Shown: positions 302 to 61,653 of the stretch, piece after piece
Numbering within the stretch: position 1 is the first letter of the stretch
How the letters are laid out: every line of letters begins with the position of its first letter
Assembly: GCF_000384215.1 (NCBI RefSeq)
Contig: NZ_KB913032.1
Coordinates: 4,419,665 to 4,483,664 of the forward strand
From: Amycolatopsis alba DSM 44262
GTDB lineage: Bacteria > Actinomycetota > Actinomycetes > Mycobacteriales > Pseudonocardiaceae
DNA: 64,000 nt
Direction of reading: 5' to 3'
The notes under the pieces: model-generated
Seen by the model: only the letters and a program-made list of their open reading frames with translations
Told to the model about the DNA's origin: nothing
The model's database searches: none
Made by a program: the position numbers and the translations under genes

Positions 302-363
302 TCGACTTTCGCGGGCTAATCGCGATCCGGCGCCCACTCGACTTTCGCGGGCTAATCGCGATC
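302..363. repeat. two tandem copies of the intergenic palindromic element
   Basis: Copies at 302-327 and 338-363, same orientation, 36 bp apart. Both have the TCGACTTTCGC left half and GCTAATCGCGATC right half. They lie between two convergent genes, which fits a 3'-end role such as bidirectional termination (inference). Confidence 0.9.
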
Positions 364-392
364 TGGTGGCAGGAAGCGCAGGTCAGCGGGGG

Positions 393-1238
393 TCAGTTGC
401 CGGTGGGGGGAGCGGGGCAGGGCTCCGGGGAGTTGGCGTGGCCGGTGATCAGCCACTGGCCCATCTCGACTTCCTGCAGGGTGAAGCTGCCCAGCAGGGG
501 GCCGCCGCGGATGCTGTACCAGCAGGAGTGGATCGTCAGGTTCTGCCGCGGGACCACGCTCGACATCGGGCGCACCGCGTAGATGTACGGCGTGATGTCG
601 GTGACCTTGGCGTTCAGCGCCGGGACGGCGGTCGCGCAGTCCGGGTAGCCGAGGTCTCGGGCGAACTGGGCTTGCGCCTGCTCGCTCATCGACAGGCAGA
701 CCTTCTCGACACGGGTGGCGGGCGGGTACGGCTTGCCGATCGTGTCGTAGATGGCCCGGACGGCTTCCCAGGGATTGGTCGAAAGCACCTGGTTGGTGTG
801 GTGCTTGCCGCCGCCGCCCTGGACGAACGTCGCCGTGTCCTGACCTGCGTCGCTGGGGAAGATCTGCCGGTAGGCGATGGTGGCCCCGACGCAGATCAGC
901 ACGATCACGATCACCCAAGCGAGGAGTTTCCCGCCGAGACGTCGCAGCCAACGCGGCAGGCGCGGACGAGGGGCGGGCACGAGCTCGCCGGGTGGCGGTC
1001 CCGGAGGCGCCGGTGGCTGTCCTCCGTAGTGCTGGGTCACGGGCTGGGTGGGCTGGGCCGGGACGAGGCCCTGGTTCTGCGCCTCGGTGAACTTCAGATA
1101 GTCCTGGAACTGCTGAAACTGCTGGAACTGGCGCAGTTGCTCCTCGTCCAGCCGGGGCGCGGGCTGACCGCCCGCCTTGGGCTCGATGCCCGTGCCGGGC
1201 TGGTCGACCGGCTTTCCGTCATCACGCTGCTCCGCCAC
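393..1238 (-). CDS. hypothetical single-pass membrane protein
   Basis: 281 residues, GTG start. Residues 1-90 are Gln/Pro-rich and probably disordered and cytoplasmic, including a QQFQQFQ run. A basic stretch (RPRLPRWLRRLGGK) precedes one transmembrane segment (about 104-125, LLAWVIVIVLICVGATIAY). About 155 extracytoplasmic residues follow, with four cysteines that could form disulfides. I do not recognise a family. Topology suggests a cell-envelope protein. It is transcribed towards the repeat pair at 302-363 and diverges from the rplJ leader. Confidence 0.75.
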   Translation of the reverse strand: MAEQRDDGKPVDQPGTGIEPKAGGQPAPRLDEEQLRQFQQFQQFQDYLKFTEAQNQGLVPAQPTQPVTQHYGGQPPAPPGPPPGELVPAPRPRLPRWLRRLGGKLLAWVIVIVLICVGATIAYRQIFPSDAGQDTATFVQGGGGKHHTNQVLSTNPWEAVRAIYDTIGKPYPPATRVEKVCLSMSEQAQAQFARDLGYPDCATAVPALNAKVTDITPYIYAVRPMSSVVPRQNLTIHSCWYSIRGGPLLGSFTLQEVEMGQWLITGHANSPEPCPAPPTGN

Positions 1239-1367
1239 GTCACCATGATGCCTCCCGAGACCTTCCGCGCACTCCGCCGGTCGCGTTTAGCCCTCCATCC
1301 ATGCCCCCGCCGCCACCCTCAACGGACCCCGTGCGGAGGGCGGGAGAGGGTCGCGTATTCTTGTCAA

Positions 1368-1540
1368 GGTTCTACCGAAGACCGCTGGTCTTCTCCTGGT
1401 CATCTGGCCTGGAGAACGAAGGCCCCGCTAGGGCGGGCGACCCGCGCAGGAGGAACGAGGCTCGTCCACGATGCATGTCGTCGTGTGCCCTGACGCCCCG
1501 CGCCTGTCTGCGCTGGGGCGTTTCGTCGTTTCAGGGCTCT
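1368..1540 (+). ncRNA. ribosomal protein L10 leader with attenuator hairpin
   Basis: The 340-base gap before rplJ contains an ACCGAAGACCGCTGGT-type block near 1374, like the L10-binding site of rplJ leaders. A strong hairpin follows: arms ACGCCCC at 1493-1499 and GGGGCGT at 1515-1521, then TTT. In the known mechanism, L10 (or L10-L12) binds its own leader and lowers rplJL expression. The family assignment is by motif and position. A -10-like TATTCT lies at 1356-1361 but I see no convincing -35. Confidence 0.7.
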
Positions 1541-1578
1541 CAAGGCCAGTGGACCACTAGCCAAGAGAGGAGGCGACC

Positions 1579-2130
1579 ATGGCGAAGCCCGACAAGGAGG
1601 CGGCCGTCGCCGAGATCGCGGAGAGCTTCCGCAGCAGCTCGGCCACAGTCGTTACCCAGTACACCGGCCTCTCCGTGTCCCAGCTGTCCCAGCTGCGCCG
1701 CGCTCTCGGCACCAGTGCCAAGTACCGGGTCGCGAAGAACACCCTCGTCAAGCGTGCCGCCACGGACGCGGGCATCGAGGGCCTTGAAGACCTGTTCGTC
1801 GGCCCGACCGCGATCGCCTTCGTCGAAGGTGAAGCTGTTGACGCCGCGAAGGCGCTTCGCGACTTCGCGAAGGACAACAACGCGCTTGTGATCAAGGGCG
1901 GCTTCATGGACGGCAAGACGCTGTCCGTGGACGAGATCAACAAGATCGCCGATCTCGACAGCCGTGAGGTCCTGCTCGCCAAGGCGGCGGGCGCGTTCAA
2001 GGCGAAGCTGTCCCAGGCCGCCGCGCTGTTCCAGGCGCCGGCGTCCCAGGTCGCTCGCCTGGCTGCCGCGCTGGAGGAGAAGCAGCGCAACGCCGGTACC
2101 GAAGCAGCCGAAGCACCCGCCGAGAGCTGA
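1579..2130 (+). CDS. rplJ: 50S ribosomal protein L10
   Basis: 183 residues, slightly longer than usual (~170-175) because of an acidic Ala/Glu tail. L10 forms the base of the ribosomal stalk and holds L7/L12 dimers through its C-terminal helix. The N-terminal part ([20 protein letters not shown]) and [13 protein letters not shown] are typical. ATG with a strong upstream AGAGGAGG. First gene behind the L10 leader, 48 bp before rplL. The usual upstream rplK-rplA pair is not in the window. Confidence 0.98.
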
Positions 2131-2178
2131 ACACCCCCCACCCCGAACTTTTAGTTCGTTTCAGAGAGGAAAGCCACC

Positions 2179-2565
2179 ATGGCGAAGCTGAGCACCACCG
2201 AGCTGATCGACGCCTTCAAGGAGCTCACCCTTCTTGAGCTGTCCGAGTTCGTCAAGGAATTCGAGACCACCTTCGACGTGACCGCGGCCGCCCCGGCTGC
2301 CGTCGTCGCCGCCGGCCCGGTCGGCGCTGCCCCGGCCGCCGCCGAGGAGCAGGACGAGTTCGACGTCGTCCTCGAGTCCGCTGGTGAGAAGAAGATCCAG
2401 GTCATCAAGGTCGTCCGTGAGGTCGTCTCGGGCCTGGGCCTGAAGGAGGCCAAGGAGCTGGTCGAGGCCGCTCCCAAGGCCCTTCTGGAGAAGGTCGACA
2501 AGGAGGCCGCCGAGGCCGCCAAGGAGAAGCTCGAGGCCGCGGGCGCCAAGATCGCCATCAAGTGA
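2179..2565 (+). CDS. rplL: 50S ribosomal protein L7/L12
   Basis: 128 residues. Three parts are visible: an N-terminal dimerisation helix region (1-35, [18 protein letters not shown]), an Ala/Gly/Pro hinge (36-58), and the factor-binding C-terminal domain ([21 protein letters not shown] onwards). It recruits and stimulates translational GTPases. RBS GAGAGGAAAG precedes the ATG. A strong terminator follows, so rplJ-rplL form their own unit, apart from rpoBC. Confidence 0.98.
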
Positions 2566-2603
2566 TCTCGGGCGCGTAAGCGCCTACCGCAGCACCGTCG
2601 AAG

Positions 2604-2636
2604 GGGCGGGCATCCACCACGGATGCCCGCCCTTTC
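2604..2636 (+). terminator. rplJL terminator
   Basis: Inverted repeat GGGCGGGCATCC / GGATGCCCGCCC with a 5-base ACCAC loop, followed by TTT. It lies about 40 bp after the rplL stop. Confidence 0.9.
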
Positions 2637-2714
2637 GCTTTGGTCACGACCGTTGCGTCCGGTTCATGCTCTCCGATTACAGAGGACTTGTCCTGCTGCG
2701 GAAGGTGACTTGCG

Positions 2715-3047
2715 ATGACCGACGGCCACACACGCGTCAGATACTTCGCGACCGCGTCTCTCGACCCCTATGAAGTCGAGAAACGGATCAAGAACGCAAA
2801 GGCCCAGGTCGAAGGCATTGACGGCGTGGATGAGCCCAGTCCCGTCTACACCGATCAGTTGCTCGTCGAGATTCTCGCTCAACAGGTCGCCGCTCGGCGC
2901 TATTTGCTGACCCTCGCCGTCATCGCCGTGCTCGGTGTCGCCGCCTCGGTGATCTGCGCGATCGTCATCGCCGTCCAGGTCACGGAGGCCAACGCCCACT
3001 CCAGCAGCTCGTCGTCTTCCTCCTACTGCGGCCTCTATCGCTGCTAG
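2715..3047 (+). CDS. small single-pass membrane protein, unknown
   Basis: 110 residues, ATG start. Residues 1-62 are soluble and charged (DPYEVEKRIKNAKAQVEGID). A long transmembrane segment covers about 65-90 (LLTLAVIAVLGVAASVICAIVIAV). The short tail carries eight serines in a row and ends SYCGLYRC with two cysteines. No family recognised. The gene stands alone between the rplL terminator and the mce locus, with an intergenic repeat 13 bp past its stop. Confidence 0.7.
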   Translation: MTDGHTRVRYFATASLDPYEVEKRIKNAKAQVEGIDGVDEPSPVYTDQLLVEILAQQVAARRYLLTLAVIAVLGVAASVICAIVIAVQVTEANAHSSSSSSSSYCGLYRC

Positions 3048-3059
3048 GCCCAGGGCACC

Positions 3060-3089
3060 GGATCGCGATTAGCCCGCGAAACTCGATCC
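3060..3089. repeat. intergenic palindromic element, reverse orientation
   Basis: GGATCGCGATTAGC, CC, GCGAAACTCGATCC. It is 13 bp after the preceding stop and about 270 bp before the mce operon. Confidence 0.9.
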
Positions 3090-3135
3090 GGGCGCCGAGG
3101 GAGGGGCCAGTTGTGGATCTGCGGCCGGGGGTGAC

Positions 3136-3163
3136 GTGCACTACGGTGCCGCTAGCGGTGCAC
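3136..3163. promoter_or_regulatory. possible operator upstream of the mce operon
   Basis: Two GTGCAC palindromes (3136-3141 and 3158-3163) are exactly 22 bp apart, two helical turns, in the gap before mkl/mceG. That spacing suits a dimer-of-dimers repressor. Mce operons are often controlled by FadR- or TetR-type regulators, but I cannot match this site to one. A TTGACG at 3259 may belong to a promoter; no clear -10 was found. Confidence 0.3.
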
Positions 3164-3354
3164 GGGCGGGCGGCGGGCTGCGCGAAAAGTTACCCGCGGG
3201 TCTGGCCAGAAAAGAAAACTGGTGAGTAACCTGTTCGCACTCAGCTCGTTGCACCTGGTTGACGCGGGTATCGCTGCGCGAACGCATGCGTCCTCTCGGG
3301 CCAGTGGCACGGGACGGCAGTGCGCGACGACGCGGAACAGCTCCTGGAGGTGCG

Positions 3355-4527
3355 ATGGGTGCCGAGGTGGTCATCGAAGGTCTTTCCAAGTCCTTCGGTA
3401 AGCAGGCCATCTGGCGGGACGTCACGCTGACCCTGCCTCCGGGCGAGGTTTCGGCGATGCTCGGTCCGTCCGGAACCGGTAAGTCCGTCTTCTTGAAGTC
3501 GATGATCGGTCTGCTCAAGCCCGACAAGGGCCGGTGCATGATCAACGGCGTCGACATCGTGACGTGCTCCGAACACCAGCTCTACGAGGTGCGCAAGCTC
3601 TTCGGTGTCCTCTTCCAGGACGGCGCCCTCTTCGGCTCGATGAACCTCTACGACAACGTGGCGTTCCCCCTGCGGGAGCACACGAAGAAGTCGGAGACCG
3701 AGGTCCGCCGGATCGTGCTCGAGAAACTCGAGATGACCGGCCTCAACGGCGCCGACAAGAAGCTGCCCGGCGAGATCTCCGGCGGTATGCGCAAGCGCGC
3801 CGGTCTCGCCCGCGCCCTGGTGCTGGACCCGCAGATCATCCTGGTCGACGAGCCGGACTCCGGCCTCGACCCGGTCCGCACCACCTACATCTCCCAGCTC
3901 TTCCTGGACGTCAACGCGCAGATCGACGCGACGTTCCTGATCGTCACGCACAACATCAACCTCGCCCGCACCGTCCCGGACAACCTTGGCATGCTGTTCC
4001 GCAAGGAACTGGTCATGTTCGGCCCGCGCGAGGTGCTGCTGACCAGCGAGGAGCCGGTCGTCAAGCAGTTCCTCAACGGCAAGATGGACGGCCCCATCGG
4101 CATGAGTGAGGAGAAGGACTCGGCCCAGCTCGCCGCGGAGCGCGCGATGTTCGAGGCCGGTCACCACGCGGGCGGTGTCGAGGACATCAGCGGGGTGCCG
4201 CCGCAGATGCAGCCGACGCCTGGCGTGCCGACGCGGATGGGCGCGGTCCGCCGCAAGGACCGCGTCATGCAGATCCTGTCCGGTCTGCCGCACGAGGCAC
4301 AGCAGAGCATCATCGAGTCGCTCTCCCCGGAGGAGCAGCAGCGCTACGGCGTCCGCCCGCAGCGCCTCGCCGCCGCGGGGCACCGTTCCGCACCGCAGAG
4401 CGACGGTCCGATGCCGAACCACCACCAGGGGCAGCTGCCCGACGATCAGGTCGCCTCGATCCCGCATCCGGGGAGACCGGGCAACCACCGCTTGCGGCCA
4501 CATGATCCGGGGTCAGGTGGCGCGTGA
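3355..4527 (+). CDS. mkl: Mce transport ATPase MceG/Mkl
   Basis: About 390 residues from ATG 3355, chosen because CTGGAGG lies just upstream and the ABC domain starts at once; the frame is also open further upstream. ATPase of the MlaFEDB-like Mce lipid importer. Walker A GPSGTGKS is at residues 37-44, the signature ISGGMRKRAGLARAL begins near 141, Walker B ILVDEPDSGLDP near 162, and the His switch is in VTHNINLA. A C-terminal extension of ~150 residues (with LSGLPHEAQQSIIESL) is typical of actinobacterial Mkl. It energises the permease pair encoded next, with a 4-bp overlap. Confidence 0.93.
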   Translation: MGAEVVIEGLSKSFGKQAIWRDVTLTLPPGEVSAMLGPSGTGKSVFLKSMIGLLKPDKGRCMINGVDIVTCSEHQLYEVRKLFGVLFQDGALFGSMNLYDNVAFPLREHTKKSETEVRRIVLEKLEMTGLNGADKKLPGEISGGMRKRAGLARALVLDPQIILVDEPDSGLDPVRTTYISQLFLDVNAQIDATFLIVTHNINLARTVPDNLGMLFRKELVMFGPREVLLTSEEPVVKQFLNGKMDGPIGMSEEKDSAQLAAERAMFEAGHHAGGVEDISGVPPQMQPTPGVPTRMGAVRRKDRVMQILSGLPHEAQQSIIESLSPEEQQRYGVRPQRLAAAGHRSAPQSDGPMPNHHQGQLPDDQVASIPHPGRPGNHRLRPHDPGSGGA

Positions 4528-5318
4528 GCTCTCCCGCTTCATCGGCGAAGATCCCCGGAATCGGCATGTTGCGCGAGACCGGGAACCTGTTCGCTCTCGG
4601 CCTCGACATCGTTCGTGGCATTTTCCAGCGCCCGTTCCAGCTGCGGGAGTTCATCCAGCAGGCCTGGTTCATCGCGAGCGTCACGATCCTGCCGACGGCG
4701 CTCGTCGCGATCCCGTTCGGCGCGGTCATCTCGCTGCAGTTCGGTTCCCTTGCCCGCCAGCTCGGCGCCCAGTCCTACACGGGCGCCGGGTCGGTGCTCG
4801 CCACCGTGCAGCAGGCCAGTCCGCTGGTCACCGCGCTGCTGGTCGCGGGGGCCGGTGGCAGCGCGGTCTGCGCCGACATCGGCGCGCGGACCATCCGTGA
4901 AGAGATCGACGCCATGGAGGTACTCGGCGTCTCCGCGGTGCAGCGGCTGATCGTGCCGCGTGTGCTCGCGATGATGCTGGTGGCGCTCCTGCTGAACGGC
5001 ATGGTCAGCGTCATCGGCGTGCTCGGCGGCTACTTCTTCAACGTCGTCCTCCAGGGTGGGACGCCGGGCGCGTACCTGGCGAGCTTCTCCGCGCTGGCCC
5101 AGCTGCCGGACCTCTGGGTCGGTGAGCTGAAGGCGCTGATCTTCGGCTTCATCGCCGCGGTCGTCGCCTCCTACCGGGGACTGAACCCGTCCGGCGGCCC
5201 GAAGGGCGTCGGCGACGCGGTGAACCAGTCGGTCGTCATCACGTTCCTCATGCTGTTCGTGGTGAACTTCGTGATCACGCTGATCTACCTGCAGATCGTG
5301 CCCGGAAAGCTGGACTGA
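4524..5318 (+). CDS. yrbE1A: MlaE-family permease YrbE A
   Basis: 264 residues, GTG overlapping the mkl stop. Membrane subunit of the Mce transporter, with five to six hydrophobic segments. The MlaE signature AGAGGSAVCADIGARTIREEIDAMEVLGV includes the EEIDAMEVLG coupling helix that meets the ATPase. It probably forms a heterodimer with the next gene product. The locus number '1' is a convenience; which Mycobacterium Mce operon is orthologous cannot be told. Confidence 0.92.
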   Translation: MSSPASSAKIPGIGMLRETGNLFALGLDIVRGIFQRPFQLREFIQQAWFIASVTILPTALVAIPFGAVISLQFGSLARQLGAQSYTGAGSVLATVQQASPLVTALLVAGAGGSAVCADIGARTIREEIDAMEVLGVSAVQRLIVPRVLAMMLVALLLNGMVSVIGVLGGYFFNVVLQGGTPGAYLASFSALAQLPDLWVGELKALIFGFIAAVVASYRGLNPSGGPKGVGDAVNQSVVITFLMLFVVNFVITLIYLQIVPGKLD

Positions 5319-5321
5319 CGC

Positions 5322-14743: not shown

Positions 14744-14773
14744 GGATCGCGTTTAGCCCGCTAAACGCGATCC
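14744..14773. repeat. perfect palindromic element between convergent genes
   Basis: Arms GGATCGCGTTTAGC and GCTAAACGCGATCC are perfect complements around CC (14+2+14). The minus-strand gene starting at 15999 takes its TAG stop from inside it. Confidence 0.93.
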
Positions 14774-15999: not shown

Positions 16000-16462
16000 G
16001 CCTCCAGTCTCGCAGTGTCGGCCGGATCGACTTTCGCCCCCTAATCGCGATCCGGGGGCCTTCCTGTGCGCCGCACCAGCCAGCCCACCGGCCACAGCCG
16101 CCACAGGCCCCCAGCGGCCTCGGAGCGCCCCGCTCCGACCCGGTGACTCTGGGGAACACCCCACCGGCGGGATCGCGTTTAGCCCGCTAAACGCAGGTCG
16201 GCGCCCCAGCGTCGTCACCTGCGGGTACCGGGCGGTAACCAGGATGATCGTCCTGTGAAGCGTCCTGCGCGGAGCCACTTCCACGCTGCGCCAACCGGCG
16301 GGACCACCGCGCGGCATCTTGACTCAGAGCCCCTGTGGGGTCACGCTTACTGGCAACGGTGAGAACCGGCGGTGCCCTTGCGGGAGGGACGGTCCGGGGA
16401 AGCCAGGAGAGGCATACCTGAAGACGTTGCGATGCAGGCTGGGCCCCATCGGGAGCGCCCCC
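16000..16462. other. gap upstream of rpoB with two palindromic elements
   Basis: The gap holds one element at 16024-16053 (a variant with CCCCC in place of CGGG in the middle) and one at 16171-16203. The second shares 33 identical bases, including flank, with a copy at 55254-55286. No convincing gene. Confidence 0.8.
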
Positions 16463-24201: not shown

Positions 24202-24315
24202 GGATCGCGATTAGCCCGCGAAAGTCGAGTCCCGCTTCCTGCCCTCGCAGATCGCGATTAGCCCGCTAAAGTCGACGCCCCCGCAGATCGCGATTAGCCC
24301 GCTAAAGTCGATCCG
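24202..24315. repeat. three tandem palindromic elements
   Basis: Reverse-orientation copies at 24203-24228, 24250-24275 and 24286-24311. The last two are identical over 26 bp and 36 bp apart. The first has GCGAAA in place of GCTAAA. Confidence 0.93.
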
Positions 24316-24395
24316 GCCGGAGGGCGACGATCGGTGCGGTATCCGCCTGGATGCGCGACGGTTGGCGGGCGATCCCGGTGCTGTCGGCCGAAAGG

Positions 24396-25519
24396 ATGGT
24401 CGACATGGAGTCCCTTGAGACAGACGAGAGCACGACCACGAAGAACCTGCGATCCGCCTTGGACGGCGTCCATCGGGCAGGGGTGCCGGGCGCGTTCGCC
24501 GAGGTGCGGGCAGGCGACTTGACCTGGCGCGGCGCCGCCGGGGTCGCCGACCTCGAAACCGGCCGCCCCGTCGAGCCCGCGATGCGGCAGCGCGTCGGCA
24601 GCATCACCAAGACCTTCGTCTCGGCCGCGGTGCTGCGCCAGGTCGAGGACGGCCGGATCGAGCTGGACACGCCGATCGGCGACCACCTGCCGCTGCTGGT
24701 CTCCGGCGAACGCGGCCGGAAGATCACGATCCGCATGCTGCTCAACCACACCAGCGGCCTCGCCGAATACCTGCCCTACGCGTTCCCGTCGTTCAAGGAG
24801 ATCGCCCCTGGGAGCCTCGACGACAACCGGTTCCGGCAGTTCCGTCCGGCCGAGTTGATCGTGCTGGGCGTCGGCGCACCCGCGACCGGTGAGCCCGGAG
24901 GCACCCCGGCATCTACTCCAACACGAACTACCTGCTCCTGGGCGAACTCCTGGAACACCTGACCGGAACTCCGGTGGAGGAGCACATCTCCCGCGCCATC
25001 ATCGAACCCGCGGGCCTCGCGAACACCGGCTTTCCCGCCGGTCCTCAGATCGAGGGGCCGCACTCGCGGATGTACGAAGCGTTCTTCGGCGCGATCGATC
25101 CGCCGCGCGACTACAGCGTCTACAACATGTCCTGGGTGATGACCGGCGCCGGCTTGATCTCGACCGTCGAGGATCTCAACCGCTTCTACCGCAAGCTGCT
25201 CGGCGGCGAGATCGTCAGCCCGTCGTCGCTGGCGGAGATGCAGCGCACCGTCCCGGTCATCGCCCAGGACGGTCGGACTCTCGACTACGGCCTCGGCCTG
25301 TACAAGACCGTCTTCCCTGATCATGGCACCTTCTGGGGTCACGACGGCACGGTCTGGGGAGCCTTGACGATGTCCTGGACCCGTCCCGACGGTGGTCAGC
25401 AGTTCTCCGCCGCGTTCAACCTCGTGCGGTGGCGCAAGCCGACCGACGACGGAACACCGCACCCCATCGACGTCGCTCTCGCGACCCTCAAGCATCAGGC
25501 CCTCTGCGGCCCCGCCTGA
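24396..25519 (+). pseudogene. serine hydrolase of the beta-lactamase/DD-peptidase class, frameshifted
   Basis: Two open frames join into one family S12-like protein if one C is restored in the CCCC run near 24904. The first part carries the nucleophile motif SITK (S69-K72). The second starts GIYSNTNYLLLGELLEH, containing the catalytic Tyr-x-Asn, and later GHDGTVWG, matching the third motif. So the break falls immediately before the YxN box. No signal peptide is seen, so it looks cytosolic. ATG 24396 or 24405 are both possible. A true one-base deletion or a base-calling error in a short C run would look the same. Confidence 0.75.
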
Positions 25520-25532: not shown

Positions 25533-25558
25533 TCGACTTTCGCCCCCTAATCGCGATC
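25533..25558. repeat. intergenic palindromic element, forward
   Basis: TCGACTTTCGC with a CCCC middle and CTAATCGCGATC, 13 bp after the serine hydrolase stop. The CCCC variant matches the copy at 16024-16053. Confidence 0.88.
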
Positions 25559-31096: not shown

Positions 31097-31177
31097 TCGA
31101 TGTTCGCGGGCTAATCGCGATCTGGGGCCCTGGACGCGCCTGGGCGGCGGAGCGACTTTAGCGGGCTAATCGCGATC
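31097..31177. repeat. two palindromic elements, forward
   Basis: Copies at 31097-31122 (variant TCGATGTTCGC) and 31152-31177 (GCGACTTTAGC), between the MmpS-like gene and the GNAT gene. Confidence 0.9.
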
Positions 31178-31222: not shown

Positions 31223-31720
31223 ATGACCTGGAGCTTCGAAGTCACGCCCGTCGATCACCCGGACGCCGCCCAGTTGCTGCGCGAGTACCTGGACGAGATC
31301 GCTTCCCGGTTCTACGGGCGCCAGATCACCGACGAGGAGCTCGACGCCGCGCTCGAGGAGCACCACAGCAGGCACCTGACCCCGCCGACCGGCGCCTTCC
31401 TGCTCGCCTGGCGCGAAGGGGTGCTCGCCGGTTGCGCCGGGCTGCGGGTCGTAGCGCCCGACATCACCGAACTCACCCGCGTCTTCCTCCGGCGGGAAGA
31501 ACGCGGCAAGGGCGGCGCGGCGCTGCTCGTGGCCGCCGCCGAGGACGTCGCCCGCGATCTCGGGGCCACGACCATCCGCCTAGACACCCGTGACGACCTC
31601 GTCGAGGCGAGGGCCCTGTACGCGCGCCTCGGCTACGAAACGGTCGAGCCCTTCAACGACGACCCCTTCGCCCATCACTACTTCGCGAAGTCCCTGGCCG
31701 GATCGCGTTTAGCGGGCTAA
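31223..31720 (+). CDS. GNAT-family N-acetyltransferase
   Basis: 165 residues, ATG start. Acetyl-CoA-binding motif A is RVFLRREERGKGGAALLVAAAEDVA (Arg/Gly loop near residues 90-96). The C-terminal YARLGYETVEPF is typical of GNATs. Substrate unknown. The last residues, SRLAG, and the TAA stop are encoded by a palindromic element at 31701-31726, and the 3' end overlaps the convergent gene by four bases. Confidence 0.85.
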   Translation: MTWSFEVTPVDHPDAAQLLREYLDEIASRFYGRQITDEELDAALEEHHSRHLTPPTGAFLLAWREGVLAGCAGLRVVAPDITELTRVFLRREERGKGGAALLVAAAEDVARDLGATTIRLDTRDDLVEARALYARLGYETVEPFNDDPFAHHYFAKSLAGSRLAG

Positions 31721-31726
31721 ACGCGA
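31701..31726. repeat. palindromic element forming the ends of two convergent genes
   Basis: GATCGCGTTTAGC / GGGCTAAACGCGA. The plus-strand GNAT stops at its TAA and the minus-strand membrane protein at its TAG. Confidence 0.93.
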
Positions 31727-50457: not shown

Positions 50458-50646
50458 GGATCGAGTTTCGCGGGCTAATCGCGATCCGGCGCCTCGGGCT
50501 CCCCACGCTTGCGACGACCTCTGTTCAGCCCGCTAATCGCGATCCGGGCCCCGGAACGGCCGACCCGACTTTAGCGGGCTAATCGCGATCTGTCGGTCGC
50601 CCAGGTGCCCACCGCCCAGATCGCGATTAGCCCGCTAAAGTCGATC
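50458..50646. repeat. cluster of four palindromic elements
   Basis: Copies at 50461-50486 (forward), 50523-50543 (partial, TTCAGCCCGCTAATCGCGATC), 50565-50590 (forward) and 50619-50644 (reverse). Densest cluster in the window, filling the gap between the rplO terminators and the next gene. Confidence 0.92.
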
Positions 50647-50700: not shown

Positions 50701-51441
50701 GTGGCCATACCTTCCGGGCAGGATCCGCAGCCCTTCCAGCAGCCGGATGCCCCGCCGATGGTCGTATCCGTTTCAGGTCCCATGGATCCCCTAGGCGAAC
50801 CAAGTCGGTCCGGTCGGCTTGAGCCCCGCAGGCTCGTCGCGGCGGGGCTGGCCGCTCTGGCCCTGGTGCTGACCCTCGCAGGCTGCTTCTTCCCGCTCTT
50901 CAGGACCGAGCATCGGTTCGCCTTCGACACCAGCGACCAGAGCATGTTCGTGTTGGTGCAGAGTGCATGGGACACGATCGCGGAGCAGCGCGACCAACCT
51001 GCCGTCGTGTCGTCGACGACACCTATCGGTATTCCGCTCCTGATTGCCACGACGCTCCTGCTGGCGGCCGCGGTCGTCAGCACGCGGTTCGCCTGGCGTC
51101 ATCGACCGGGAGCTTTGGACAGGTGGTTCACCACCATCGCGGCGGTGTTCCTCACCGGCGTCGTCAGCTGCGTCGCCACGCTGGGGGCCGGACGCCAGCT
51201 GGGAGATGACGTCAAGGTGACCTTGACTCTCGAAGCGGGTATGTGGGCGCTCTTCGCTGCGGTCGTCGCCGTTGTCGCTGCGGCCGTGATGAGCCATCGC
51301 GTCCAGGAGGACGAGGTCTCGCTGAGCGGTCACCCGAGTCTCGCGGATCTGCCGACGCCGAAAGACGGTATCTCCATCACGGTGCTTCCGCCGGAGCCGC
51401 CGGACTACTCAGCCTTCGCGCCTCCGAAGGATCGCGATTAG
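50701..51441 (+). CDS. hypothetical membrane protein, four helices
   Basis: About 246 residues from GTG 50701 (GGAAGA upstream; the frame is open further back through a repeat, which is unlikely to be coding). Pro/Gln-rich N-terminus, then hydrophobic segments near 51-70 (LVAAGLAALALVLTLAGCFF), 110-130, 142-165 and 178-200. Hydrophilic tail. No family recognised. The final PKDRD and TAG stop are encoded by the repeat at 51429-51458. Confidence 0.65.
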   Translation: MAIPSGQDPQPFQQPDAPPMVVSVSGPMDPLGEPSRSGRLEPRRLVAAGLAALALVLTLAGCFFPLFRTEHRFAFDTSDQSMFVLVQSAWDTIAEQRDQPAVVSSTTPIGIPLLIATTLLLAAAVVSTRFAWRHRPGALDRWFTTIAAVFLTGVVSCVATLGAGRQLGDDVKVTLTLEAGMWALFAAVVAVVAAAVMSHRVQEDEVSLSGHPSLADLPTPKDGISITVLPPEPPDYSAFAPPKDRD

Positions 51442-51458
51442 CCCGCTAAACGCGATCC
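51429..51458. repeat. palindromic element forming a gene end
   Basis: GGATCGCGATTAGC, CC, GCTAAACGCGATCC (one mismatch from perfect symmetry). Supplies the stop of the preceding gene and lies 30 bp before the LysE gene. Confidence 0.93.
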
Positions 51459-52120: not shown

Positions 52121-52128
52121 TCACGTTG

Positions 52129-52151
52129 CGTTCAGTGGCCTGATCGCGATC
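52129..52151. repeat. degenerate palindromic element
   Basis: CGTTCAGTGGCCTGATCGCGATC: the right half is kept, the left half is diverged. Just after the LysE stop. Confidence 0.6.
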
Positions 52152-55108: not shown

Positions 55109-55537
55109 CCCCCACCCCGGATCGCGATTAGCCCGCTAAAGTCGAGTCCGTCCGCTGGTCGGCGCAGTGCCCAGGCCCGCCGATGAGACGCCCGCCCGCT
55201 GCCCTCATCGGAGGCACCCCCTCCGCCGAGCGCCCCAGGGCACCCGCCCGTCAGATCGCGTTTAGCCCGCTAAACGCAGGTCGGCGGAGGCGTACGATGG
55301 TGAAGGTCGCTTCCGGCGAACTCGGGGGACATCTAACACAGTCACCCCCCGTTTGGGGCTCACGACACGGGTTGCGTACACTGTCAAGTCGGTGTACTCA
55401 TCGCGCCCGGATCCTGCGCGCTCGTGAATTCTCGCGAACGGACATTGGACCCGTGGAGGAGTGTGCCGAAGCACCACCCAGCCAAGCACTCAAGCTCTGA
55501 CTGATAACACAGCGTAGCGACAGGAAATGCGGAGGAC
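55109..55537. other. gap with two palindromic elements and the infA promoter region
   Basis: Elements at 55119-55145 (reverse) and 55254-55286 (identical over 33 bases to 16171-16203). Possible promoter: TACACT at 55377-55382, or TTGCGT (55372-55377) with a 17-bp spacer before TACTCA. No gene seen. Confidence 0.6.
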
Positions 55538-55759: not shown

Positions 55760-55795
55760 TCACGACGAGTTAGCACAAGCAGGAGAGCAGGAGAC

Positions 55796-55909: not shown

Positions 55910-55962
55910 TCACTCGCACTCGTACAGAGTGGATTGACGGCTACACAATCTCCCCGCACCTG

Positions 55963-56065
55963 CCGGGCCGTGCGAACGGCCCGGTTCACCCCCGGACTTC
56001 AGGCCGGGGCCGGGACACCCGAAGCGCAAGCCAAGGGCACGACAGGCGAGTCGGTCCCGGGACCG
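55963..56065 (+). promoter_or_regulatory. structured rpsM leader
   Basis: Three inverted repeats in the 205-base gap before rpsM: CCGGGCCGT / ACGGCCCGG with a GCGA tetraloop (55963-55984); CCCCGG / CCGGGG (55991-56011, approximate); and the palindrome CGGTCCCGGGACCG (56052-56065). This could be an S4-responsive leader by analogy with the E. coli alpha operon (inference). A 16-codon open frame, 56086-56136, overlaps the rpsM start. Confidence 0.5.
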
Positions 56066-56114
56066 GACGGGGAGCAGACCTGAAGATGAATTCTATGAAG
56101 GAGCATCAACGCCA

Positions 56115-56495
56115 ATGGCACGACTCGCTGGCGTAGACCTCCCCCGCGAAAAGCGGTTGGAGATCGCGCTGACCTACATCTACGGCATCGGCCGTACTCG
56201 CTCGAAGCAGCTCATCGCGGCTGCCGAGCTCAACGCGGACACTCGCGTCAAGGATCTGAGCGATGACGACCTCGCCAAGCTGCGGGTCTACATCGAGGAG
56301 AACTTCAAGGTCGAGGGTGACCTTCGCCGCGAGGTGAACGCCGACATCCGTCGGAAGATCGAGATCGGGTGCTACGAGGGCCTTCGCTGGCGTCGCGGAC
56401 TTCCCGTCCGTGGTCAGCGCACCAAGACGAACGCCCGCACCCGTAAGGGTCCGAAGAAGACGGTCGCCGGCAAGAAGAAGGCTGGCAAGAAGTGA
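56115..56495 (+). CDS. rpsM: 30S ribosomal protein S13
   Basis: 126 residues, [38 protein letters not shown] and a Lys-rich end. Head protein contacting the P-site tRNA. The stop overlaps a GTG of the next, unknown gene. Confidence 0.98.
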
Positions 56496-56677
56496 GCGTC
56501 CAGGGCAAGAAGGTCGTGCGGATGGGCGGCGTTCACCGCCGCGGCTCGGCTTGTGTCTCGCCCAAGGCGCTCTACGCCCGCCCGATGGCGCTCCGCAACC
56601 TGTACACCGACGCCGGTTCGATCATCCGGCGCGGACAGGCCGAAGCGGTCGCCGCTCACCAAGAGAACGCGCGCTAA
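56492..56677 (+). CDS. unknown 61-residue basic protein between rpsM and rpsK
   Basis: 61 residues, GTG overlapping the rpsM stop by 4 bp, the pattern of translational coupling. Codon composition is strongly coding (hand count: GC about 72 % at position 1, 52 % at position 2, nearly 90 % at position 3). The protein is basic: N-terminus [17 protein letters not shown], middle [15 protein letters not shown], end [16 protein letters not shown]. It has one Cys and no membrane segment. It matches no ribosomal protein I know; rpsM and rpsK are normally adjacent. A ribosome- or RNA-associated small protein is a guess from location and charge. Confidence 0.6.
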
Positions 56678-56695
56678 CAGGAGAACCCTCAAAAC

Positions 56696-57103
56696 ATGCC
56701 ACCGAAGTCTCGTACTGCGGCGGGGGCCAAGAAGGTCCGCCGTAAGGAAAAGAAGAATGTCGCGCACGGTCACGCGCACATCAAGAGCACCTTCAACAAC
56801 ACCATCGTCTCGATCACGGACCCGACCGGTGCCGTGATCGCGTGGGCGTCGAGTGGTCACGTGGGCTTCAAGGGCTCGCGTAAGTCCACCCCGTTCGCCG
56901 CGCAGATGGCCGCCGAGAACGCCGCCCGCAAGGCTGCTGAGCACGGCATGAAGAAGGTCGACGTCTTCGTGAAGGGCCCTGGTTCGGGTCGCGAGACGGC
57001 GATCCGCTCGTTGCAGGCGGCCGGCCTCGAGGTCGGCACCATCCAGGACGTGACCCCGCAGCCTCACAACGGCTGCCGCCCGCCCAAGCGGCGCCGGGTC
57101 TGA
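56696..57103 (+). CDS. rpsK: 30S ribosomal protein S11
   Basis: 135 residues, ATG with CAGGAGAA upstream. [18 protein letters not shown] and [15 protein letters not shown] are diagnostic. Platform protein near the E-site codon. Confidence 0.99.
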
Positions 57104-57126
57104 GGAACGGGGAGGAGTAAGAAGAA

Positions 57127-57732
57127 ATGGCTCGTTACACCGGCCCCGCGACGCGTATTTCGCGTCGCCTCAAGGTTGACCTCATCGGCGGCGACCAGGC
57201 TTTCGAGCGTCGCCCCTACCCGCCGGGCCAGCACGGCCGCGGGCGCATCAAGGAGTCCGAGTACCTCCTGCAGTCGCAGGAGAAGCAGAAGGCTCGTTAC
57301 ACCTACGGCGTTCTCGAGCGTCAGTTCGTCCGGTACTACAAGGAAGCCGTCCGGCGTCCCGGTAAGACCGGTGAGAACCTGCTGCAGATCCTCGAGTCCC
57401 GTCTGGACAACGTGATCTACCGCGCCGGCATCGCCCGCACCCGCCGTCAGGCGCGTCAGCTGGTGAGCCACGGCCACTTCGTGGTCAATGGCGTCAAGGT
57501 CAACGTCCCGTCCTACCAGGTCACGAAGTGGGACATCATCGACGTGCGGCCGAAGTCGTTCGCGATGCTGCCCTTCGTCGCTGCCAAGGAGTCGTTCGGC
57601 GAGCGTCCCGTTCCCGCGTGGCTCCAGGTTGTTCCGTCCAACCTCCGGGTGCTGGTCCACCAGCTCCCGGAGCGCGCTCAGATCGACGTTCCGGTTCAGG
57701 AACAGCTGATCGTCGAGCTCTACTCGAAGTGA
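57127..57732 (+). CDS. rpsD: 30S ribosomal protein S4
   Basis: 201 residues, ATG. Cys-free N-terminal form. [23 protein letters not shown]4 domain at about 90-115. In E. coli S4 is the alpha-operon repressor. Followed by a strong hairpin before rpoA. Confidence 0.98.
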
Positions 57733-57737
57733 TCCAT

Positions 57738-57766
57738 TACCGGGCCGGAGATCCTCCGGCCCGGTA
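57738..57766 (+). terminator. rpsD-rpoA intercistronic hairpin
   Basis: Perfect 12-bp arms TACCGGGCCGGA / TCCGGCCCGGTA with a 5-base loop and no clear T run. Likely an attenuator or processing hairpin, like the one between rpoB and rpoC. Confidence 0.65.
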
Positions 57767-57859
57767 TGGGTTCGCGCGGCGGCGCCCAGAGTGCGCCGCC
57801 GCGTCGCCATCCCTTTCGGTGTCATATGGCGGGCGCCGTTTGGAAAGGAATTAGGAAAG

Positions 57860-58933
57860 ATGCTGATTTCCCAGCGGCCGGCTCTCGGCGAAGAGACGGT
57901 CAACGAGACCCGCTCCCGGTTCACCATCGAACCGCTGGAGCCCGGCTTCGGCTACACGCTCGGCAACTCGCTGCGGCGCACGCTGCTGTCGTCCATTCCT
58001 GGCGCGGCCGTGACGAGCATCCGCATCGACGGCGTGCTGCACGAGTTCACCACCGTTCCCGGAGTGAAGGAAGATGTCACCGACATCATCCTGAACCTCA
58101 AGGAGCTCGTGGTCTCCTCGGAAGAGGACGAGCCGGTCACCATGTACCTGCGCAAGCAGGGCCCCGGTGAGGTCACCGCTGCCGACATCGTGCCCCCGGC
58201 CGGTGTCACCGTGCATAACCCGGATCTGCACATCGCGTCGCTGAACGGCAAGGGCAAGCTCGAGATCGAGCTCGTCGTCGAGCGCGGCCGCGGTTACGTT
58301 CCGGCCCTGCAGAACAAGCAGGCGGGCGCGGAGATCGGCCGGATCCCGGTCGACTCCATCTACTCCCCGGTGCTGAAGGTGACCTACAAGGTCGAGGCGA
58401 CCCGTGTCGAGCAGCGCACCGACTTCGACAAGCTGATCCTGGACGTGGAGACGAAGCCGTCGATCACGCCGCGGGACGCCGTCGCGTCGGCCGGTAAGAC
58501 GCTGGTGGAGCTGTTCGGTCTCGCGCGCGAGCTGAACGTCGACGCCGAGGGCATCGAGATCGGCCCGTCGCCGCAGGAGGCGGACACCATCGCCGCCTAC
58601 GCGATGCCGATCGAGGACCTGGACCTCACCGTCCGGTCGTACAACTGCCTCAAGCGCGAGGGCATCCACACCGTCGGCGAACTGGTCTCGCGCAGCGAGG
58701 CCGACCTGCTGGACATCCGCAACTTCGGTGCGAAGTCGATCGACGAGGTCAAGCTCAAGCTCGTCGGCCTCGGCCTCGCGCTGAAGGACAGCCCGCCTGG
58801 GTTCGACCCGACCGCGGCTGCGGCCAGCTACGACGGTGAAGGCTGGTCCGAGGGCGTCGACAGCATCACGGACGGAATTTCGGACAACGGCCACGACGAT
58901 GGCCAGGACTACGCAGAGACGGAGCAGCTGTAA
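57860..58933 (+). CDS. rpoA: RNA polymerase alpha subunit
   Basis: 357 residues from ATG 57860 (AGGAAAG upstream); the longer frame to 57791 crosses the intercistronic region and is not used. N-terminal dimerisation domain starts near [25 protein letters not shown]-terminal domain includes [20 protein letters not shown]. An acidic tail of ~40 residues is typical of actinomycetes. Confidence 0.98.
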
Positions 58934-58943
58934 GGCCAGCTAC

Positions 58944-58973
58944 GGCTCCCTCACCGGTAGGGGTGGGGGAGCC
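58944..58973 (+). terminator. rpoA-rplQ intercistronic hairpin
   Basis: GGCTCCCTCACC / GGTGGGGGAGCC with one mismatch and a 6-base loop. Third hairpin flanking an RNA-polymerase gene. Confidence 0.5.
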
Positions 58974-59008
58974 CCGGCCTCCAGCTGTGAGCTGAACGAG
59001 GAGAACCG

Positions 59009-59572
59009 ATGCCCACCCCCACAAAGGGACCCCGTCTCGGCGGGTCGCCCGCGCACGAGCGGCTGATCCTGGCCAACCTGGCCACCCAGCTGTTCGAGCA
59101 CGGCAAGATCACGACGACCGAGGCGAAGGCCCGGCGGGTGCGCCCGCTGGCCGAGAAGCTGATCACGAAGGCGAAGCGGGGCGACCTGCACAACCGTCGT
59201 CAGATCCAGCGCATCGTGCGCGACAAGGATGTCGTGCACAAGCTGATCGCCGAGATCGGTCCGTTCTTCGCGGAGCGTCCGGGTGGCTACACCCGGATCA
59301 CCAAGACGATGGCGCGCAAGGGCGACAACGCCCCCATGGCCGTCATCGAACTGGTGGCCGAGAAGACCGTCACCGCCGAGGCCGAGGCCGCGCGCAAGAC
59401 GAAGTTCGCCAAGGACGAGCCGAAGGCTGCCGCCCCGGCCGCCGAGGAGACCACTGAGGCCCCTGAGGTTGCCGACACGGCCGCCACCGAGGCTCCGGAG
59501 GCCACCGAGGCTCCCGCCGCTGACGAGGCCGCTGAGGCCCCCGCCGCGGACGCGGACAGCAAGAAGGACTGA
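59009..59572 (+). CDS. rplQ: 50S ribosomal protein L17
   Basis: 187 residues, ATG with GAGGAG upstream. Core 1-120: [24 protein letters not shown]. The last ~65 residues are an acidic Ala/Glu/Pro tail, as in other actinomycetes. Ends just before truA. Confidence 0.98.
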
Positions 59573-59576
59573 CGTC

Positions 59577-60479
59577 CTGACGGCACCGAACACCCCGGAC
59601 GAGCCCGCCACTCCCACTGCGGAGGGCGGGCTCGTTCGTCTGCGTCTGGACGTTTCCTACGACGGCACCGATTTCTCCGGCTGGGCGCGACAGCCCGAGC
59701 GGCGCACGGTGCAGGGAGTCCTCGAAGAGGCGCTCGCGAAGCAGCCTCCAGGAGCCTCGGTCCCGAAGTCCGTCGTCGTCGCCGGCCGCACCGATGCCGG
59801 TGTGCACGCCGCCGGCCAGGTGGTCCACGTCGACGTGTCGACTTTAGCGGGCAAAACTCGATCCGGTCGCTTGGAACTGGACGGGCAGGGCATTCCTGAC
59901 CTGGGGCGGATGCGCCATCGCTGGAATCGGTACCTGCCGGGTGACGTGCGCGTGCTCGATGCTCGCGTGGCCGCGCCCGGATTCGACGCCCGGTTCTCGG
60001 CCGTGCGGCGGCACTATCGCTACCGCGTCTCGGACGCGCCGTGGGGTGTCGATCCGTTGAGGCGTCACGACACCCTGGCCTGGGGACGTCCGCTCTCGAT
60101 CGACGCGATGAACGAGGCGTCGGAGTCTCTCTTGGGGCTTCAGGACTTCGCGGCCTTCTGCAAACAGCGCGAAGGCGGGACGACCATTCGTGAGCTGCAG
60201 CGGCTTGTCTGGCGCCGGACCGGACCGCACGCTGTCGAGGTCGATGTCTCCGCTGACGCCTTCTGCCACTCGATGGTCCGAAGCCTGGTGGGTGCGCTGC
60301 TCCTGGTCGGTGACGGCCGTCGTCCGCTGACGTGGCCAGGCGACGTCCTGGAGAGCCGGACGCGAGACAGCGCTGTCGCTCCCGCACACGGCCTTACGCT
60401 GATGGCCGTCGACTACCCGCCGGACACCGAACTCGCGGCCCGCGCCGATCAAACGCGCGCCATGCGCACCCCCTCCTGA
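59577..60479 (+). CDS. truA: tRNA pseudouridine synthase A, with an embedded palindromic element
   Basis: About 300 residues if translation starts at CTG 59577. No ATG, GTG or TTG lies between the rplQ stop and the first conserved block (RLRLDVSYDGTDFSGWARQP), while AAGGA is 8 bp before the CTG. TruA makes pseudouridine 38-40 in tRNA anticodon arms. The catalytic Asp is in GRTDAGVHA. Later blocks FDARFSAVRRHYRYR, FAAFCKQREGGTTIR and FCHSMVRSLVGALL are intact. A palindromic repeat at 59838-59863 encodes STLAGKTRS in a loop that varies among TruA proteins. Its expected in-frame TAA reads AAA here. Confidence 0.9.
   Translation: MTAPNTPDEPATPTAEGGLVRLRLDVSYDGTDFSGWARQPERRTVQGVLEEALAKQPPGASVPKSVVVAGRTDAGVHAAGQVVHVDVSTLAGKTRSGRLELDGQGIPDLGRMRHRWNRYLPGDVRVLDARVAAPGFDARFSAVRRHYRYRVSDAPWGVDPLRRHDTLAWGRPLSIDAMNEASESLLGLQDFAAFCKQREGGTTIRELQRLVWRRTGPHAVEVDVSADAFCHSMVRSLVGALLLVGDGRRPLTWPGDVLESRTRDSAVAPAHGLTLMAVDYPPDTELAARADQTRAMRTPS
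59838..59863. repeat. palindromic element inside the truA coding sequence
   Basis: TCGACTTTAGC, GG, GCAAAACTCGATC. Against GCTAAACTCGATC it differs by T to A at 59852, which turns an in-frame TAA into AAA. Confidence 0.88.
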
Positions 60480-61408
60480 CCCGGCCGCGGCGACGTTAGC
60501 GGGCTAATCGCGCTGCGGCGGGCGCGCCAGACGGCATCGACGATGCCTTTGAAGTCGTTCGCCAGGTCTTCCGCGGTGACGATGACGAAGCGCCAACCCT
60601 CAGCCTCCGCACGTCTTCGGCGCTTGCGATCGTAGGCTTGTTGTTTTGGTGTGTTGTGCCATTGGCCGTCGTATTCGATGGCGACCTTGTACTCCTTGTC
60701 TCCAAGGTCGAGGCGGGCGATGAAGTGGCCTGTCCGGGAGAAGACCTCGACTTGAGGTGTCGCGGCAATGCCGCCGGCGGCCAGCACGATGCGGACTTCC
60801 GATTCCGGAGGTGATTCCGCGCGAGGGTCGGACAGCCGTAAAGCGGTTCTGGCCAAGCGAATTCCCCGATTCCGGCGTCCGTAGAACTCCCCGTTGAGAT
60901 GTAGATCGCTCAGCTTCTCGGCTTTCATGAACTGGTCCAGATCCGGGACGCCGATCCGGAGTCGTCGCACCCACCCGGATTTGCGAGGAGAAAGCCGGAG
61001 TAGCAGGTCCAGTGCGATTCGAGTTTTACGCGCGATACGAATGCCGTTCCACGGCTTCGATTCCTCGGGCTTGATCTCGGTACGCCGGACCTTGATACCG
61101 ACTATCGGGCCGAAGCGTTGTTTCTCCGGTACGACCATCTCAACCGGATCATTGGGCCTGGCCAGCTCGACACCTTGAATGGTCGCGGCCGATCGTCCGG
61201 TCAGCACAGCTTCCGGAGGCGCCAGCAATGCGGCGCCGCGGCAACGCAGCTCGTGCGTGACCTCCACGTCGGCACGCGTGTAGACGTCCTGGAACAGCCT
61301 TCGGACGCTGGGGCCAAGTAGTTGGCTCGCCGTGATGAGGCCCGCCTTGCGCGCCACTGAGCCGCGGAAGACTTCGGGGAGATGAGATGAATCGAAGGGT
61401 TTGGTCAT
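60449..61408 (-). CDS. DUF559-type endonuclease-like protein with AbiEi-like N-terminus
   Basis: 319 residues, ATG at 61408. N-terminal part (1-90) resembles the winged-helix of AbiEi-type antitoxins (GLITASQLLGPSVRRLFQD). C-terminal part has the Vsr-like nuclease fold of DUF559: LDLGDKEYKVAIEYDGQWHN, then KRRRRAEAEGWRFVIVTAEDL. Activity is untested in most such proteins. The last ~30 residues read through a palindromic element (RSAISPLTSP) and overlap the truA 3' end by 31 bp, so the natural C-terminus was probably closer to VDAVWRA. Confidence 0.75.
   Translation of the reverse strand: MTKPFDSSHLPEVFRGSVARKAGLITASQLLGPSVRRLFQDVYTRADVEVTHELRCRGAALLAPPEAVLTGRSAATIQGVELARPNDPVEMVVPEKQRFGPIVGIKVRRTEIKPEESKPWNGIRIARKTRIALDLLLRLSPRKSGWVRRLRIGVPDLDQFMKAEKLSDLHLNGEFYGRRNRGIRLARTALRLSDPRAESPPESEVRIVLAAGGIAATPQVEVFSRTGHFIARLDLGDKEYKVAIEYDGQWHNTPKQQAYDRKRRRRAEAEGWRFVIVTAEDLANDFKGIVDAVWRARRSAISPLTSPRPGQEGVRMARV
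60490..60513. repeat. palindromic element inside a gene 3' end
   Basis: GCGACGTTAGC, GG, GCTAATCGCGC. Lies 11 bp after the truA stop and in frame near the end of the minus-strand gene. Confidence 0.85.
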
Positions 61409-61550
61409 GTCTGCACGGTGATAGACAAGGCCGACAACACCTGGCCATCACCGGCCCCGCAAGGGCTATCTATCCACAACCCCCGCCTTGTCCACAGTCG
61501 GCGCTATTGCCCCTTGACGGACCAACTTCCCACCGGCTTCCCGACCCAAG

Positions 61551-61653
61551 TCGACTTTAGCGGCCTAATCGCGACGCGGGTGGGACGCAAAACGGGGGCA
61601 CTGTCCGATGTGGACAATGCCCCCGCAGATCGCGATTAGGCCGCTAAAGTCGA
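61551..61653. repeat. facing pair of palindromic elements enclosing a hairpin
   Basis: Forward copy 61551-61574 and reverse copy 61630-61653 are perfect inverted repeats of 24 bp, both with GGCC at the centre instead of GGGC. Between them is GGGGGCACTGTCC / GGACAATGCCCCC (61594-61624), an imperfect hairpin with one mismatch. The 61409-61663 gap holds no gene. Confidence 0.88.

Follow-up and report, generated by a model that had tools for sequence, protein, structure and literature searches.

A short palindromic element occurs about 25 times in a 64,000-nucleotide stretch of Amycolatopsis alba DSM 44262 (genome G000), here called the window, which covers positions 4,419,665-4,483,664 of the single 9.81-Mb contig. 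The original prediction had listed the copies by eye; all 25 have been recovered where they had been placed, and a 26-bp core and an orientation have been determined. The oriented core is TCGACTTTAGCGGGCTAATCGCGATC, with perfect symmetry in a few copies, and the consensus after retraining on 400 kb is CCGnnTCGACTTTCGCGGGCTAATCGCGATCnGGnG. The nearest named proteins agree with a placement in Amycolatopsis (93% to A. azurea). Among the copies lies a likely partner gene encoding the protein P0001. We think it likely that the palindromes are double-stranded-DNA binding sites of P0001, and that gene and sites form a two-part chromosomal system working like repetitive extragenic palindromic (REP) elements and their REP-associated tyrosine transposases (RAYTs). 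The confinement of the palindrome to one chromosomal domain, the partner gene within the window and a copy inside the truA coding sequence had all been overlooked.

Sites 1 (302..327, +) and 2 (338..363, +) stand 36 bp apart and are followed by site 3 (3061..3086, -), site 4 (14745..14770, -), which has the perfectly symmetrical form, site 5 (16027..16052, +) and site 6 (16171..16196, -). Three minus-strand copies form a cluster, with site 8 (24250..24275) 47 bp after site 7 (24203..24228) and site 9 (24286..24311) 36 bp after site 8. Site 10 lies at 25533..25558 (+), site 12 (31152..31177, +) comes 55 bp after site 11 (31097..31122, +), and site 13 (31701..31726, -) is near-symmetrical and fits either strand. 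No matrix match exists between 31726 and 50459, in keeping with the reported absence of copies from the rpsL-tuf and S10-spc operons, as the original prediction named them. A further group consists of site 14 (50461..50486, +), the weak site 15 (50519..50544, +), site 16 (50565..50590, +) and site 17 (50619..50644, -), with site 18 (51430..51455, -) and the weak site 19 (52126..52151, +) beyond it. Sites 20 (55120..55145, -) and 21 (55254..55279, -) share a spacer that we take to be map-infA and that holds sites in 6 of 6 genomes compared. Site 22 (59838..59863, +) lies within the truA coding sequence, site 23 (60490..60515, +) over the final codons of that partner gene, and sites 24 (61551..61576, +) and 25 (61628..61653, -), 77 bp apart, upstream of it. 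The names rpoB, map, infA, rpsL and tuf are presumed ones, in part taken over from the original prediction.

The likely partner gene (60449..61408, -) adjoins truA and encodes 319 amino acids. Three sites (23, 24 and 25) stand at its ends and one (22) in its neighbour. Its product consists of an AbiEi-like N-terminal part (residues 1-194) fused to a Vsr/EDxHD nuclease domain (residues 195-302). The N-terminal part resembles the AbiEi fold of Streptococcus agalactiae AbiEi (6y8q) and Mycobacterium tuberculosis Rv2827c (1zel), and the nuclease part agrees with the EDxHD fold of I-Bth0305I (3r3p) and Vsr (1cw0). In Pfam, DUF559 scores just above the cut-off and MTES_1575, a nuclease family, below it. 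Residues E202, D234, H251 and D260 do not vary in either of two sets of 43 and 57 sequences, and presumably represent the EDxHD catalytic motif. Two DnaA-box-like sequences, CTATCCACA (61470..61478, +) and TTGTCCACA (61488..61496, +), are located about 60 and 78 bp upstream of the gene start. For 31 of 43 homologue rows, sites of the same architecture lie 114-234 bp upstream, at a background of 0.013 per kb; these rows, like a set of 52 rows, hold two genomes twice (G206=L266, G248=L265). G000 scored no upstream site in this strict scan, though sites 24 and 25 stand there. The two neighbours scanned for an AbiE toxin were truA and a 240-residue protein without Pfam match (E<=0.01), and neither is a DUF1814 nucleotidyltransferase. 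In a presence/absence screen of the domain, in which only the last 112 residues of P0001 were called, four genes occurred in G019 and G237 and also in G053, G099 or both, but were missing from the G003 region, and from its sequence the P0001 gene alone among the four appears DNA-related.

The abundance of the element is far above chance. A matrix built from the 25 copies gave 35 matches at >=15 bits, where symmetrical copies count on both strands, and Markov-3 resamplings at >=10 bits gave no match in 19 of 20 cases and one match in the other. With at most two mismatches, GATCGCGTTTAGC was found 33 times versus 1.57 expected. Retraining on 400 kb yielded 86 sites versus 0 in one Markov control, and a second matrix yielded 87 sites with 0 in the Markov controls (three per genome), counts that include the sites on which the matrices were trained. 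An Rfam scan gave no match at the gathering score. According to gene calls from a purpose-made simple gene finder, 23 of the 86 sites lie in convergent spacers, 41 in tandem spacers, 12 in divergent spacers and 10 inside genes; some of the 76 sites not called inside genes overlap gene ends by up to 18 bp. The densities are about 7.3, 2.2 and 1.2 sites per kb of convergent, tandem and divergent spacer, respectively. When distances of up to 330 nt are counted, the distance to a stop codon falls between -30 and +30 nt in 39 of 88 cases and that to a start codon in 3 of 61. Convergent spacers and stop codons are the preferred places.

The palindrome is nearly confined to one 262-kb domain, which makes up 2.7% of the 9.81-Mb chromosome. 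Over 400 kb, the matrix places 85 of its 86 sites between 4.387 and 4.651 Mb. All places listed at <=2 mismatches lie within 4.388-4.650 Mb except three (3.076, 4.298 and 4.689 Mb), and at <=3 mismatches at least three further outside places occur (3.658, 4.125 and 4.846 Mb). The pattern of G000 is matched in 16 of 40 genomes, its own included. Among 249 Pseudonocardiaceae, 52 match the symmetrical core at <=2 mismatches and 32 have at least three matches, with 0-3 in a backward control. Where the contigs listed permit a placement (G053, G079, G095, G077, G058, G021, G013, G019 and G016), the cluster adjoins rpoB; the matches of G055 fall on scattered small contigs and allow no placement. Within the domain, G003, G053 and G099 share most of the gene order of G000, yet G003 is without these sites, so that the neighbourhood alone does not make sites. 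A domain set purely by the distance to oriC has been rejected, since the distance between rpoB and parB ranges from 0.38 to 1.76 Mb in five genomes (circular chromosomes assumed) and the sites stay in the rpoB neighbourhood throughout. Site density is bell-shaped near the gene. The median site lies away from rpoB relative to the gene, at 27 kb in G000, 41 kb in G019, 27 kb in G237, 16 kb in G053 and 14.5 kb in G099; it is at -6 kb in G021, of which 60 kb were read, and 25 kb to one side in G246. The regions used clip these distributions, that of G021 most, and the offsets place the gene inside the dense core, not at its exact center. Away from the domain, a lone identical site, CGTTTAGCGGGCTGAACG, is present at G000:C1:3075526, G019:C1:670453, G237:C1:450138 and G016:C3:105339, and may be a conserved isolated target.

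The presence of the palindrome goes together with that of the gene. Among the 249 Pseudonocardiaceae, a homologue at E<=1e-60 is present in 32 of 32 genomes with at least three core matches versus 8 of 217 others; 30 of the 32 are at ortholog level and two (G055 and G132) at 46% identity. An ortholog (>=56% identity) is present in 18 of 18 site-bearing genomes tested. In 17 of them its nearest edge is 30-42 kb from that of rpoB; in G093 it is on another contig. As every ortholog that can be placed lies near rpoB, gene and rpoB neighbourhood are inseparable in the P0001 clade, and the paralogues described below alone separate them. Among nine Amycolatopsis genomes without the sites, five lack any match at E<=1e-15, three carry just a paralogue of about 44% identity elsewhere (G023 a weaker one as well), and G004 has an ortholog. 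For G004 a variant palindrome was predicted from the ortholog before the DNA was read, and GCTTYTGC-SS-GCARAAGC was found, with eight exact copies of TTCTGC-2-GCAGAA in 240 kb versus 0.03 expected. Genome-wide, the G004 pattern has 102 matches versus 5 in the backward control, and 4-6 in G000, G003 and G009. G246 has 89 pattern matches versus 9 in the control, with the gene at 2.143 Mb; nine of the matches listed lie outside about 1.99-2.23 Mb. A de novo palindrome scan of seven further genomes, a set that leaves aside G156 and G234, has revealed palindromes of the same architecture in G246, G068 and G047, the last with one near each end of the gene. A few weaker palindromes of this architecture are present in G206 and G248.

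The paralogues are accompanied by an element of their own. Copies of CACTTTCACGTGAAAGTG at <=2 mismatches number 135 in G003, 68 in G005 and 58 in G023, all of which have the paralogue of about 44% identity, versus 0-1 in six other genomes. The element was first taken for an unrelated oddity and was later found to accompany the paralogue. In G003, three copies flank the paralogue, at both ends, 775 kb from rpoB; copies occur close to the paralogue and, at a distance of 0.8-1.0 Mb, in the rpoB region. The copies listed for G005 and G023 are scattered genome-wide. CACTTTCACGTGAAAGTG contains what we take to be the parS core, TTTCACGTGAAA, and cross-talk with ParB is possible on this sequence likeness. 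A repeat of at least 14 nt (14 to 33) common to the upstream and the downstream flank is present for 6 of 9 distant homologues (34-43% identity, other families) versus 10 of 299 control genes; these homologues were picked from 14 non-own matches listed. G014 holds a second homologue (G014:C4:5014736-5015578) with inverted copies of a 25-bp element, CCCCGCAATTAGTCACCTACTTGCG, on its flanks.

Neighbouring sites keep a regular spacing. In three Amycolatopsis genomes the start-to-start gaps are mostly 36-38, 45-48, 55-58, 66-68 and 77-79 bp, and this series is present in both direct and inverted pairs. The tandem spacing of exactly 36 bp reported earlier is confirmed, as one step in a 36/46/56/67/77 series. 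The vector strength of 110 gaps is 0.63 at 10.4 bp and reaches its best value, 0.68, at 10.0 bp, whereas 300 uniform draws gave at most 0.34 at any period tested; some equal gaps arise from tandem duplication, so the gaps are not all independent events. The best periods in single genomes are 10.4, 10.1 and 9.9 bp, and the inverted pairs pooled have a vector strength of 0.58 (n=52). The same peaks are seen in 237 gaps from named Amycolatopsis loci among the matches listed; these loci may overlap, and their species are related. Given a helical period of 10.0-10.4 bp, the palindrome probably acts as double-stranded DNA. RNA folding is in line with this for G000, where pairing over most of its own copies falls to 0.36, 0.11, 0.22 and 0.21 at four arm columns and the energy is close to that of mono-shuffled sequences (-9.1 vs -7.4). 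The conserved hairpin expected of an intrinsic terminator is thus absent from G000, and other genomes keep more pairing; the palindromes of five of them fold better than shuffled ones (-12.1 to -12.9 vs -6.5 to -8.3). In addition, separate GC-rich hairpins stand beside the site in 2 of 5 spacers inspected. The phasing together with the lost hairpin pairing in G000 favors proteins bound in a set helical relation. In G053 and G099 the gaps are mostly 32 and 42-43 bp (27 gaps, vector strength 0.75 at 10.4 bp), with best periods of 14.5 and 11.1 bp when each is taken alone. Between genera the helical period is kept, but the spacing is offset by roughly half a turn (32/42/53 in G053 and G099 vs 36/46/56 in G000, G019 and G237), which suggests a different protein geometry.

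Site retention was compared over spacers that measure 25 bp or more in each genome of a pair and whose two neighbours are conserved. Of 114 such spacers between G000 and G019, 24 hold sites in both genomes, 0 in G000 only, 2 in G019 only and 88 in neither. The corresponding numbers are 25, 0, 2 and 102 for G237 (129 spacers), 3, 2, 2 and 42 for G053 (49), 2, 3, 1 and 42 for G099 (48) and 2, 1, 2 and 18 for G021 (23). Random pairs of sites within a genome are alike at 21.6, 21.1 and 21.1 of 26 positions, and the best matches between orthologous spacers at 20.6 and 21.1, so likeness within a genome equals or exceeds that between species. In five spacers the site number changes by whole units of site plus linker, including tandem amplification; units are gained and lost there, and no clear target duplication was read. 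The site in truA occupies a variable loop and its spelling follows the palindrome of the lineage: TTTAGC-type in Amycolatopsis relatives of G000, TTTTGC in G004 and G246, and a CGAGAAC arm in G021. No site is present at this place in the site-less G003 and G012. The loop length differs by one or two residues between groups, which excludes a 26-bp insertion. The site lies about 19 nt further along in L258 (G110), and the G019 copy is degenerate, with GGG for GCG. These sequences point to a truA site that changed in place under selection for a matching site.

In the system that we propose, one resident gene with cognate sites around it would be combined with a family of dispersed sites. Dimers of P0001 would bind single sites and cooperate across neighbours whose spacing keeps the helical register. 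Expression of the gene would be set jointly by the sites immediately upstream of it and the DnaA-box-like sequences. The nuclease domain may nick or cut at or near the sites and thereby drive short-range copying, tandem gain and loss and site replacement, by which the sites of one genome would remain similar and would spread in the vicinity of the gene. Sites would be tolerated at gene ends. We infer direct binding of P0001 to the sites, as well as autoregulation and DnaA control of the partner gene; cleavage by P0001 and local spreading of sites are speculative.

Several observations weigh against this proposal. The inverted pairs of G000 alone are weakly phased (0.46, n=12, p 0.075), and the 7 gaps of G021 are not clearly phased. 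No palindrome has been found near the homologue in G045 (30 kb) and G132 (16 kb), and the variant core matches of G132 are on other contigs than its homologue. The genomes are related, so the counts of gene-palindrome pairing are not independent. The homologue of about 44% identity in G014 is flanked at both ends by a different element, and homologues of about 43-46% in G016, G021, G056 and G190 lie outside the flank reading. A shared-flank criterion of at least 12 nt is weak, being satisfied by 7 of 9 distant homologues versus 72 of 299 controls (24%). The site medians, 14.5-41 kb beyond the gene in five genomes, amount to loose centring. The truA case and the conserved spacers argue for in-place selection over active movement. 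Finally, an active nuclease with about 85 chromosomal targets should harm its host, so it may be controlled, only nick, or act elsewhere.

An alternative is that the sites are miniature elements of a purely selfish kind, which the nuclease-like protein would copy, which would have no host role and which short-range copying alone would confine to the region; the gene-palindrome pairing is common to this reading and the system proposed here. Whole site-plus-linker units gained and lost between species, tandem amplification included, concerted similarity within genomes and the bell-shaped density near the gene are all as such elements would leave them. We nevertheless regard this explanation as rather unlikely, since the truA site follows the lineage spelling without a 26-bp insertion, all 24 counted site-bearing spacers of G000 keep sites in G019, and helical phasing in both orientations suggests a selected binding geometry. 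Another chromosome-organising protein, of the MatP or Noc kind, might mark the rpoB-ribosomal domain in which the nuclease-like gene merely happens to be located. This would fit a cluster that remains by rpoB in readable genomes with a P0001 ortholog at any parB distance, and the conservation of sites by spacer across species. It is improbable in view of the presence of the gene predicting the palindrome, G004 included, of the G003 paralogue, which has its own flanking palindrome far from rpoB, and of the presence/absence screen (with the G003 region as sole negative), in which no gene but that of P0001 appears DNA-related.

The earlier candidates had been a REP-like mobile repeat, a bidirectional terminator and a protein-binding site; copy number, a mostly extragenic position, palindromic form, the flanked gene and phasing support the first and the last, and the terminator finds no support in G000. 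Bidirectional terminators or RNA hairpins would account for the enrichment at convergent 3' ends and for the better-than-shuffled folding in five other genomes, yet the four unpaired arm columns and near-shuffled energy in G000, the separate hairpins next to sites and the near-confinement to a small part of the chromosome make them very unlikely. An equally slight chance is left to classical REP elements mobilised by a RAYT, an HUH tyrosine transposase. In copy number and size, in lying downstream of genes and in being paired with a flanked gene, the sites agree with REPs as described in two reports (PMC3733652, PMC3116915), but the GTAG tag is not in the consensus and the flanked gene is not a tyrosine transposase, a check made on the gene beside the sites and not extended to a RAYT elsewhere in the genome. 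Clamp-loading sites of the KorB/ParB type have sequence resemblance in their favor, the core being similar to what we take to be the RK2 KorB operator and the G003 palindrome containing the presumed parS core. This reading was rejected and is scarcely credible, as the single ParB_N protein of G000 (one PF02195 match) lies beside parS at 3.74 Mb.

The closest parallel to the system proposed here is that of REP/REPIN elements and RAYTs (TnpA-REP; 'REPtrons'), which likewise combine high-copy short extragenic palindromes with one resident flanked gene. REPs are 20-40 bp extragenic palindromes at gene ends in tens to hundreds of copies, and the resident gene is flanked by cognate copies, with protein and palindrome co-evolving (PMC8266576, PMC3733652, PMC3116915). 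The partner described here is an AbiEi-like/EDxHD protein in place of an HUH tyrosine transposase, the copies are confined to one domain in the P0001 clade, the sites are helically phased and no conserved hairpin is present in G000; lacking both the GTAG tag and a tyrosine transposase at the gene, the system fails two defining features of REP/RAYT. AbiEi proteins bind inverted repeats in their own promoter cooperatively (PMC7319586). P0001 resembles their fold in its N-terminal part; it differs in the fused nuclease domain, in having dozens of chromosomal sites and in the absence of a toxin-like protein among the two neighbours scanned. Compared with the EDxHD homing endonuclease I-Bth0305I and with Vsr, P0001 is a predicted nuclease encoded by a chromosomal gene with its own nearby palindromes. 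The pairs matS/MatP, NBS/Noc and parS/ParB mark chromosomal domains. They too consist of many short palindromes limited to one region, whereas the sites here number about one per 3 kb and are tied to a gene neighbourhood and not to oriC distance, and G000 has no ParB paralogue besides the oriC ParB. A literature search in which most subscription journals were not covered turned up no paper on the gene-palindrome pairing.

We tentatively suggest, at somewhat less than even chances, a new class in which AbiEi-like/EDxHD proteins, each with a lineage-specific palindrome family, would write and maintain a marked domain of about 100-260 kb (truA-linked clade) or an array scattered genome-wide (paralogue clade), with binding in helical register and expression tied to replication through DnaA boxes; it would parallel REP/RAYT without being homologous to it, and would have a regional reach. 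REP elements were recognised decades ago, and there is still no consensus on why they are maintained. Another protein class, unrelated to RAYT but apparently acting like it, would provide an independent test of why genomes keep such a gene with its palindromes. Confinement to one region is unusual; it hints either at very local copying or at a marked domain that surrounds rpoB and the ribosomal protein genes. The host may benefit, for instance through domain organisation. DUF559/MTES_1575 proteins are, to our knowledge, unexplained, and candidate target sites for them may be readable from the flanks of their genes.

Some minor features were also recorded. The palindrome GTCCAC-N-GTGGAC, at the top of one count, was dropped, as 8 of its 10 copies in G000 lie inside called genes; the 10 copies are located within 4.30-4.70 Mb, and five more are present in the G003 region. 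In the window, the adjacent open reading frames 24351-24962 and 24974-25519 correspond to the front and back of one beta-lactamase-family protein (PF00144) and resemble a split gene. At the window end, a repeat array with a 9-bp period and a collagen-like look occupies 63661-63867.

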